Made by a program: the position numbers and the translations under genes. The notes under the pieces were generated by a model. That model searched no databases. It worked only from the letters and a program-made list of their open reading frames with translations, and had not been told where the DNA came from. Below are positions 30,769 through 33,993 of a DNA stretch of 33,993 nucleotides, in pieces; position 1 is the first letter of the stretch, and every line of letters starts with the position of its first letter. Origin of the DNA: Bacteriovoracia bacterium (GTDB lineage: Bacteria; Bdellovibrionota; Bacteriovoracia; Bacteriovoracales; Bacteriovoracaceae); the NCBI GenBank assembly GCA_030426585.1, contig JAUHYH010000005.1, positions 1-33,993 on the forward strand, written 5' to 3'.

Positions 30769-33084
30769 ATGTCTATGATTAGCAGCGATTTAGAAGTCAT
30801 TTTTAACAAATCCATAAAACTAGCGAATGAAAAGAAACATGAGTTTTTAACACTGGAAAATGTTCTCTTGGGAATGTTGACTGATCCAGCTGTCGCTCAG
30901 TGTTTGTCAGAAATTGGAGCAGATATTGATCGCCTAGAATCAGAACTCACTGACTTTATGAATGAAGATAAAAACTTCTCCATTCTTTCTGATGAAGAAG
31001 TTGAAGACTTGAATAAAAACCAATTTGTGAATGATCATCTTCGTAAAGTTGCTGAAGAAAATGGCGTTCGTTATCAACCCGAAATTAGCATGGCCCTTCA
31101 GAGAGTTATTCAAAGGGCGGCACTTCATGTTCAATCCTCTGGAAAAAAATCAATTCAGCCTATTAACTTATTAGTAGCAATGTTTAGTGAGAAAGAATCT
31201 CATGCTGTGTATTTTTTAGAAAAAGAAGGAGTGACTCGCATCCAAGTCGTTGAAAAAGTTGCTCATGGATTTGATAAGGCTTCCAACAAGCAGATCGAAG
31301 GTGGCTTTGATCCTCTTAAGAAAGAGGAGAAATTCGAAAAAGCGTTGGCTGAGTTCACAGTGAATCTCACGAAGCAAGCGGCTGAGGGGAAAATTGATCC
31401 TATTATTGGGCGAGAGACTGAAATTAGAAGGATGGTTCAAATTTTAAGTCGTCGTAGAAAAACGGCACTCGCTGAAGGTCTTGCTCTTAAGATTTATGAA
31501 GGCGATGTTCCTGAGCAACTCAAAGATACTGAAATTTTTGCCCTTGATATGGCATCACTTCTAGCGGGAACCAAATTTCGAGGAGACTTCGAAGAGAGAT
31601 TAAAAGTTGTCGTTCAAGCACTCAAAGGTGACCAAGGAAGTAAGAAAATTCTCTTTATTGATGAAATCCACACCATTATTGGGGCAGGATCGACCAGTGG
31701 GGGAAGCTTAGATGCTTCTAATTTGCTGAAGCCGGCACTTAGCAAAGGTGAACTCCGATGTATCGGCAGTACAACCTATGATGAATTCAGGAAATTCTTT
31801 GAGAAAGACCAGGCATTAACTCGAAGATTTCAAAAAGTGGACGTGGATGAACCTTCAAAAGAAGATACTTTAAAGATTCTCGAAGGACTTAAGTCTAAAT
31901 TTGAGGATCATCATGGTGTGAAATACTCTTCAGAGGTCCTGAAAACAGCAGTGGAACTTTCCACAAAACACCTTCACGAACGTAAGCACCCAGATAGGGC
32001 CATAGACGTTATTGATGAAGTTGGGGCTTACCTAACTCTTTTGCCTGCTGATAAGAAGCGTACAGAGGTAACAACGGGCGATGTTGAGCACATTATTTCG
32101 ATGATGGCGCGAATTCCGGAAAAATCAGTCTCTGTTCATGAAAAAGATAAGCTTAAAAACCTCGAAAGAGATCTTAAGTTACTGATATATGGACAAGATA
32201 ATGCAGTTGAGAAAGTATCGAATGCAATCATCTTATCAAGATCTGGTTTGAGGGATGAGAACAAACCCATTTCTTCTTTCCTCTTTACTGGTCCAACCGG
32301 TGTTGGGAAAACGGAACTTGCCAAACAACTGAGTCATATTCTTGGTCTTCACTTTGAAAGAGTTGATATGTCTGAATATATGGAGAAGCATTCAGTGGCA
32401 AAATTAATTGGCGCTCCTCCAGGTTACGTGGGATTCGACCAAGGAGGGATCCTCACTGAGAACATTAACAAGCATCCTTACTGTGTTCTCCTTCTTGATG
32501 AGATTGAAAAGGCTCACCCTGATATTTTTAATATCCTTCTTCAGGTTATGGACCACGGAAAACTTACTGACTCGAATGGAAGAACCACTGATTTTAGAAA
32601 TGTTGTTCTTATTATGACCAGTAACGCTGGTGCAAAGGAATACGAATCAGGAAGTATTGGTCTCAGCGAAGGCTCAGCAGAAGTGAACACTGTTAAGCGA
32701 GATCAAGCTATAAAGCGGTATTTCACGCCTGAATTCAGAAATAGAATTGATTCTATTATTAACTTCAACAAGCTTGAGAAGAACAATATCGATAATGTTG
32801 TAAAAAAATTCCTTATGGAAGTAGAGAACCAATTGCTAGAAAAAGGTTATGACCTTGAGATTGATAAAGCGGTTGTTGCTTGGATTGCTAAGGAAGGATT
32901 TGATTCCAAACTAGGTGCAAGGCCTCTCGCGAGAGTGATAAGTGAGAAGATTAAGAAACCTTTAGCGAATGAATTACTCTTCGGTAACTTCGAAAAAGGT
33001 GGAAAAATTCTCGTGAAACTAGAAAAAGATGAAATTAAATTTGAATTTAAAGAACAAAAAACACGAGAAAGCGTCAAAAACTAA
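30769..33084 (+). CDS. clpA: ClpA-type AAA+ unfoldase lacking the NBD1 Walker A segment
   Basis: ClpA N-domain, NBD1 Walker B ILFIDEIHTIIGAG and ALTRRFQK, NBD2 Walker A GPTGVGKT (32290-32313), LLLDEIEKAHPDIFN, IGL-type loop GSIGLSEG. NBD1 reads RRRKTALAEGLA with no GxxGxGKT. Confidence 0.93.
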   Translation: MSMISSDLEVIFNKSIKLANEKKHEFLTLENVLLGMLTDPAVAQCLSEIGADIDRLESELTDFMNEDKNFSILSDEEVEDLNKNQFVNDHLRKVAEENGVRYQPEISMALQRVIQRAALHVQSSGKKSIQPINLLVAMFSEKESHAVYFLEKEGVTRIQVVEKVAHGFDKASNKQIEGGFDPLKKEEKFEKALAEFTVNLTKQAAEGKIDPIIGRETEIRRMVQILSRRRKTALAEGLALKIYEGDVPEQLKDTEIFALDMASLLAGTKFRGDFEERLKVVVQALKGDQGSKKILFIDEIHTIIGAGSTSGGSLDASNLLKPALSKGELRCIGSTTYDEFRKFFEKDQALTRRFQKVDVDEPSKEDTLKILEGLKSKFEDHHGVKYSSEVLKTAVELSTKHLHERKHPDRAIDVIDEVGAYLTLLPADKKRTEVTTGDVEHIISMMARIPEKSVSVHEKDKLKNLERDLKLLIYGQDNAVEKVSNAIILSRSGLRDENKPISSFLFTGPTGVGKTELAKQLSHILGLHFERVDMSEYMEKHSVAKLIGAPPGYVGFDQGGILTENINKHPYCVLLLDEIEKAHPDIFNILLQVMDHGKLTDSNGRTTDFRNVVLIMTSNAGAKEYESGSIGLSEGSAEVNTVKRDQAIKRYFTPEFRNRIDSIINFNKLEKNNIDNVVKKFLMEVENQLLEKGYDLEIDKAVVAWIAKEGFDSKLGARPLARVISEKIKKPLANELLFGNFEKGGKILVKLEKDEIKFEFKEQKTRESVKN

Positions 33085-33088
33085 CCAC

Positions 33089-33272
33089 TTTTTTAAGCTT
33101 TCTAACTCATTTTTGTAACTTTTGTTCTGTTTTTTAGAAAAATTGCGGAGTTTTTTTTAATTTTCACAAGTTTTTTGCTGTTTTTTCCTTAAATTTGAAA
33201 AATTGTAAAAAAAATTTTCAATCTTCCGATCATTAAAAAAAAGTAAAAAAACACTAAAAAAATTGTTTTTTT
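33089..33272. promoter_or_regulatory. phased A/T-tract region, predicted intrinsically curved DNA
   Basis: T-runs beginning at about 33110, 33120, 33130, 33151, 33161, 33171, 33181 and A-runs at about 33235, 33245, 33256: near-helical-repeat spacing. Confidence 0.75.
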
Positions 33273-33275
33273 CCA

Positions 33276-33304
33276 TTGCACTAAAATAAAATTGTGTTTA
33301 TGCT
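33276..33304 (+). promoter_or_regulatory. putative sigma70-type promoter of the histone-like gene
   Basis: TTGCAC - 17 nt - TATGCT, directly upstream of SD GGGAGGAAG and ATG 33341. Confidence 0.5.
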
Positions 33305-33340
33305 TTTTGTATACCAAATATTTTTATTGGGAGGAAGATT

Positions 33341-33658
33341 ATGGCAGTAAAAAGAAAAAAGAAAGCTACTACAAAAAAGAAGACTTCTAAGAAGAAGGCA
33401 ACTAAAAGAAAAGTAGCTAAGAAAAAGAAAAAAGTAGCTAAGAAGAAAAAAGCTACGAAAAAGAAAAAGAAAGTAGCTAAGAAGAAAAAAGCTACTAAGA
33501 AGAAAGCTACTAAGAAAAAGAAAGCTACTAAGAAAAAGAAAGCGACTAAGAAGAAGGCTACTAAGAAAAAGCGTAAAGCTAAGAAGAAGTCTACTAAGAA
33601 AAAAGCCGCTAAGAAAAAGCCAGCTAAAAGAAAAAAAGCTGCTAAGAAAAAGAAGTAA
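33341..33658 (+). CDS. lysine-rich histone H1-like DNA-binding protein
   Basis: 105 aa, about 60% Lys, with KKATKKK/KKVAKKK repeats; strong SD. Confidence 0.85.
   Translation: MAVKRKKKATTKKKTSKKKATKRKVAKKKKKVAKKKKATKKKKKVAKKKKATKKKATKKKKATKKKKATKKKATKKKRKAKKKSTKKKAAKKKPAKRKKAAKKKK
33356..33650 (+). repeat. degenerate tandem coding repeats (AAGAAAAAGAAAGCTACT-like units)
   Basis: Repeated GCTACTAAGAAAAAGAAA / GTAGCTAAGAAGAAAAAA units within the histone-like gene. Confidence 0.8.
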
Positions 33659-33684
33659 TCTAGATTATTCTAGTATCTTTAATG

Positions 33685-33713
33685 AGGGGACCTATCAGGT
33701 CCCCTTTTTTTTT
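33685..33713 (+). terminator. rho-independent terminator of the histone-like gene
   Basis: AGGGGACCT-ATC-AGGTCCCCT followed by T-tract. Confidence 0.94.
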
Positions 33714-33739: not shown

Positions 33740-33993
33740 ATGTTTGCAAGATTATTCTGGAAAGGCCTTGTCGTTATTCTCCCGATCTCCATGTCGATTG
33801 CTCTACTATTTTGGATTACTGTTAAAATAGAGGGTTTGCTTGGGGGGTTTTTGCAATCGGTCATAGGAGAGCAGAATTATATACCTGGCTTCGGAATTGT
33901 TGTTTCTTTCATCCTTATCATTCTAACGGGCTCTCTTGTGAGTAATTATATTACTCGTCGTTTTGTTCAGTATTTCCTCGATCAGTTTGGACG
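33740..33993 (+). CDS. DUF502-family membrane protein (3' truncated by window)
   Basis: My translation from ATG 33740: MFARLFWKGLVVILPISMSIALLFWITVKIEGLLGGFLQSVIGEQNYIPGFGIVVSFILIILTGSLVSNYITRRFVQYFLDQFG; matches the DUF502 N-terminal pattern. Confidence 0.75.
   Translation, partial: MFARLFWKGLVVILPISMSIALLFWITVKIEGLLGGFLQSVIGEQNYIPGFGIVVSFILIILTGSLVSNYITRRFVQYFLDQFG

Follow-up and report, generated by a model that had tools for sequence, protein, structure and literature searches.

Predicted intrinsic curvature upstream of a conserved promoter for a lysine-rich, H1-like protein in a Bacteriovoracia bacterium

The intergenic region between clpA and the gene of a lysine-rich, H1-like protein in a Bacteriovoracia bacterium is rich in runs of A and T, which raises the question of whether these runs curve the DNA and whether such a curve may serve the gene behind it. 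The window analysed here (33,993 nucleotides, to which all coordinates refer) is the entire contig C54 of a draft genome of 2.65 Mb (287 contigs, about 91% complete), hereafter the host genome. The closest named relative of its ClpA outside this genome belongs to a Bacteriovoracaceae MAG (68% identity). The gene order is clpS (30353), clpA, a 256-bp intergenic region of 22% GC, the H1-like gene and an intrinsic terminator, and the features of the locus are the following:

30769-33084, plus strand: clpA, upstream neighbour of the predicted curve, with its last 41 bp inside it (Pfam/NCBIfam search and curvature models)
33044-33272, no strand: predicted intrinsically curved segment with A/T tracts in helical phase (first rank in the genome sample, tract-preserving shuffles, three wedge models)
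33089-33186, no strand: array of eight T-runs, about 10 or 20 bp apart (phasing of T-runs only, p ~0.003)
33235-33272, no strand: A8-A7-A7-T7 array adjoining the -35 hexamer, its T7 end matching the T-run conserved in relatives directly 5' of the -35
33276-33304, plus strand: putative extended promoter TTGCAC-N17-TATGCT (conserved including the spacer; unique in the host genome at up to 3 mismatches)
33329-33335, plus strand: putative ribosome-binding site GGGAGGA (sequence reading; conserved in relatives)
33341-33658, plus strand: H1-like gene, lysine-rich product of 105 aa, 61% Lys (composition)
33684-33713, plus strand: predicted intrinsic terminator of the H1-like gene (terminator scan)

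A truncated ORF 3' of the H1-like gene (33740-33991) encodes a membrane protein; the fragment matched nothing in Pfam or NCBIfam, and the protein is perhaps DUF502-like. An Rfam scan for leader RNAs and sRNAs gave sub-threshold matches only, all of them near the 3' end of the H1-like gene and its terminator.

The T-runs (T5 at 33110, T4 at 33120, T6 at 33130, T8 at 33151, T4 at 33161, T6 at 33171 and T6 at 33181) and A-runs (A8 at 33235, A7 at 33245 and A7 at 33256, then T7 at 33266) listed in a first-pass annotation of this DNA were all found in place, and further runs are present at 33089 (T6), 33138 (A5), 33198 (A5) and 33207 (A8). The GC content of the tract segment is 20%, compared with 38% window-wide. 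A/T tracts of at least four nucleotides recur in 10-11 bp phase beyond chance, as had been claimed for a spacing of about 10 bp: the periodogram of A/T-tract words peaks at 10.56 bp (p = 0.028 for 33089-33272 and 0.0045 for 33044-33272), and the T-runs taken alone are phased with the p-value given above. The crudest phasing test (resultant over the centres of all tracts, with any period of 9.5-11.5 bp allowed) gave weaker values (p = 0.12 and 0.05), because the A5 at 33138 and the A5 and A8 at 33198 and 33207 are out of phase.

Helix paths were predicted with three published dinucleotide wedge sets (Bolshoy, De Santis and AA-wedge), whose controls behaved as expected (a phased A6N4 array was strongly bent, a mixed sequence much straighter); curvature was measured as the ratio of end-to-end distance to contour length. 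For 33089-33272 this ratio is 0.41, 0.54 and 0.42, respectively. As few as 0-1 of 1000 dinucleotide shuffles were as compact (mean ratio 0.86-0.90), and 2-3 of 1000 shuffles in which all A/T tracts were kept and only re-ordered (mean ratio 0.82-0.87; p ~0.002). With all three models, the predicted path over 33044-33272 is a near-planar curve of about 240-330 degrees. The strongest arc, almost planar, spans 33044-33227 (ratio 0.17 with Bolshoy, 0.36 with De Santis) and extends to 33272, while the A-run part alone (33190-33275) has a predicted bend of about 75-88 degrees. Insertion in silico of 5 bp at 33143 raised the arc ratio from 0.17 to 0.74 and insertion of 10 bp to 0.32; insertions at 33190 or 33225 had a far smaller effect. 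Since a half turn at 33143 destroys the curve and a full turn does not, the curve would be made by the phasing of the T-run half and not by AT content. Prediction thus bears out the suggestion of intrinsically bent DNA, with strong net curvature under several models. The segment originally proposed, 33089-33272, does lie inside the curve, although the latter begins farther upstream, at 33044, within clpA.

Because the site had been picked by eye, its rank within the genome is the fairest test of significance. In the 382 kb sampled (14% of the host genome), the clpA/H1-like site was the top-ranked curved site at both segment lengths and with all models (ratio 0.436 vs 0.668 for the runner-up at 120 bp, and 0.167 vs 0.531 at 184 bp). 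The genes beside the second-ranking curved sites showed no common theme, and no H1-like gene was seen among them. The host genome also carries other lysine-rich H1-like genes (L002, L004 and L005 on contigs C76, C176 and C87), and no comparable curve was found near these paralogues (120-bp ratio of at least 0.80).

The promoter assigned earlier to the H1-like gene is present with exact hexamers, and comparison with relatives shows it to be strikingly conserved. Of the 129 genomes of the Bacteriovoracaceae-like family, 125 yielded a ClpA; the DNA 3' of clpA was read in about 110 loci, and in 78 of these an H1-like gene follows. In 77 of the 78 loci with this gene order the ungapped motif T5-7-R-TTTGCG-TTAAAAYAAAAWTNTG-TTTATNCT (52 bits over 48 columns) lies 57-94 bp 5' of the start codon, and a near-invariant T-run abuts the -35 in each of the 77. 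Hexamers with a spacing of about 17 bp, constant in 77 relatives, point to a sigma-70-type promoter; a generic consensus promoter scan did not list it. Its -10 (TATNCT) is unusual in that the fifth position is a near-invariant C. Conservation covers 30-36 bp, and its extension to the spacer hints that the element is not just a plain sigma-70 promoter; the spacer is possibly bound by a regulator. A regulon sharing the motif was ruled out, as the host genome holds a single site and the relatives searched hold at most one per genome; the reversed control pattern gave no sites in the genomes searched. In some g16 genomes (loci L318 and L320; genomes G043 and G045) the motif lies about 3 kb 3' of clpA, and other DNA has therefore come between them.

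Is the curve as well conserved as the promoter? Curvature was tested against tract-preserving shuffles in the 74 intergenic regions of sufficient length. It was significant (p < 0.05) in 23% (Bolshoy) and 19% (De Santis) of these loci, with a mean z of -0.7 to -0.9; other intergenic regions of four genomes, delimited by mechanical gene calls, gave 5-10% at p < 0.05 and a mean z of about 0. Both models found curvature in 16 of the 74 loci, including the host and its sister genus g28. The other 58 have no significant curvature, yet keep promoter and gene, and curvature is therefore not needed for retention of the H1-like gene. On the ClpA tree the curved state is clustered (2 of 500 label shuffles were as low) and requires at least 6 changes, so curvature has been gained or lost repeatedly. 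The host and g28 form one supported curved clade, in which the host and all four g28 loci read are curved, two of the latter with short contig ends. Their intergenic DNA is 52-60% identical to that of the host, which is little for AT-rich DNA, so here shape appears to have been kept better than sequence. Three relatives (G069, G033 and G107, of g28, g13 and g39) were chosen because their locus was already known to be curved; with every model, no other 120-bp segment in the 253-400 kb sampled from them was as curved as the clpA/H1-like intergenic region, and at 184 bp this region also came first, except in G033 under De Santis. Including the host, the four genomes in which the locus ranks first represent different genera. 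The curve lies 5' of the conserved promoter in every curved relative, at 60-423 bp from curve centre to -35, and the phase of the tracts relative to the -35 is random (Rayleigh p ~0.4). In genus g13 (L177 and L166), a palindrome, CTTTAATT...AATTAAAG, lies between curve and promoter and is a possible operator.

The gene product had been described as lysine-rich and H1-like. It matches no family in Pfam or NCBIfam, and resembles the H1-like bacterial proteins Hc2 of Chlamydia and AlgP of Pseudomonas, which are lysine-rich and repetitive, with Hc2 variable in length (PMC2848022, PMC9239181), by composition only; a nucleoid role is inferred from the same composition. The host encodes three genes of the HU/IHF family, and no H-NS homologue (PF00816) was detected in the approximately 91% complete assembly, which leaves HU/IHF or the H1-like protein itself as candidate binders of the curve. 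The idea that the H1-like protein binds the curve or regulates its own gene there fits the pattern.

We propose, with about an even chance of being right, that the region between clpA and the H1-like gene is a two-part cis-regulatory region. One part would be the strongly conserved core promoter. The other, the A/T-tract curve 5' of it, would act through its shape and not its sequence: an abundant nucleoid protein (of the HU/IHF family, or the H1-like protein) would preferentially wrap or nucleate there, and its binding may modulate transcription of the H1-like gene in the manner of curved DNA at hns-type promoters.

Among known systems, the locus comes nearest to the curved, autoregulated promoter of the hns/stpA type; the kind of element is already known, and the locus is a new case of it. 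In E. coli, H-NS has a preference for intrinsically curved DNA and acts as repressor of its own gene, and the hns and stpA promoters have AT-rich upstream DNA and show negative auto- and cross-regulation (PMC2814080, PMC4390576). The present locus likewise has AT-rich DNA, predicted to be curved, 5' of a gene for a putatively abundant DNA-binding protein. Unlike in E. coli, the product belongs to a different family and H-NS itself was not detected. Autoregulation at the H1-like gene would be a reasonable analogy. In Synechocystis, helically phased A-tracts lie 5' of promoters genome-wide, in phase with the start site (PMC9825172); here phased A-tracts also precede a promoter, but at a single outstanding locus. 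Among the papers searched, none dealt with DNA curvature in Bdellovibrio.

Three other explanations were weighed against the proposed nucleoid-protein site. Low-GC intergenic DNA may simply drift towards long A/T runs, and their phasing would then be an accident of the lineage without function. The absence of curvature from most relatives and the repeated changes on the ClpA tree would agree with this, as would the finding that bacterial chromosomes commonly show A-tract periodicity (PMC3940949). However, tract-preserving shuffles rarely reach the observed curvature, other AT-rich intergenic regions are mostly straight, and all five species of the host and g28 are curved despite their diverged sequence, so we consider a by-product unlikely, though far from negligible. 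An UP-like activator, in which a curve on the correct face would put RNA polymerase in reach of upstream DNA (alpha-CTD contacts, wrapping), had also been suggested in the first-pass annotation. It would account for the T-run abutting the -35 in relatives and for the A-run array that ends at the -35 in the host, and it has a precedent in sabA of H. pylori, a T-tract/UP-like promoter in which a T-run meets the -35 and the A-boxes are helically phased (PMC4081817). At the present locus, unlike at sabA, the strongest arc is farther 5', and neither the distance to the -35 nor the helical phase is conserved among curved relatives. A rotation-dependent mechanism is therefore weakened and appears distinctly improbable, and a distance-tolerant site, i.e. 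nucleoid-protein wrapping or nucleation or a positioned supercoil apex, is favoured.

The curve could instead belong to chromosome architecture or to the end of clpA (as a supercoil apex, as insulation from the H1-like gene, or in pausing or termination) and have no part in H1 regulation. In its favour, the arc of several relatives sits near the end of clpA and at a distance from the H1 promoter; both g13 loci read fully have a terminator-like hairpin between clpA and the arc, and the scan of the host gave no intrinsic terminator for clpA. Against this stands the single strongly conserved promoter of the intergenic region, with the curve 5' of it in every curved relative; we regard this explanation as quite doubtful. 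A bolder form of the proposed nucleoid-protein site, for which we see a small chance, is that extreme curvature has been repeatedly selected, whatever its sequence and position, at this one locus of the Bacteriovoracaceae-like family as a shape sensor: by condensing on the curve, the H1-like protein (or HU) would tune its own synthesis to the degree of nucleoid compaction, e.g. between growing and compacted cells.

Many promoters are preceded by curved DNA. What sets this locus apart is that one intergenic region ranks first for predicted curvature in four sampled genomes of different genera while sequence and spacing are free to change, which, if true, would make it a clean case of selection on DNA shape. 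These observations suggest that the gene of a DNA-packing protein is controlled by a shape-based element, and the curve together with the conserved single-copy promoter would provide a first regulatory handle on H1-like proteins, which have been little studied, in a lineage related to predatory bacteria.
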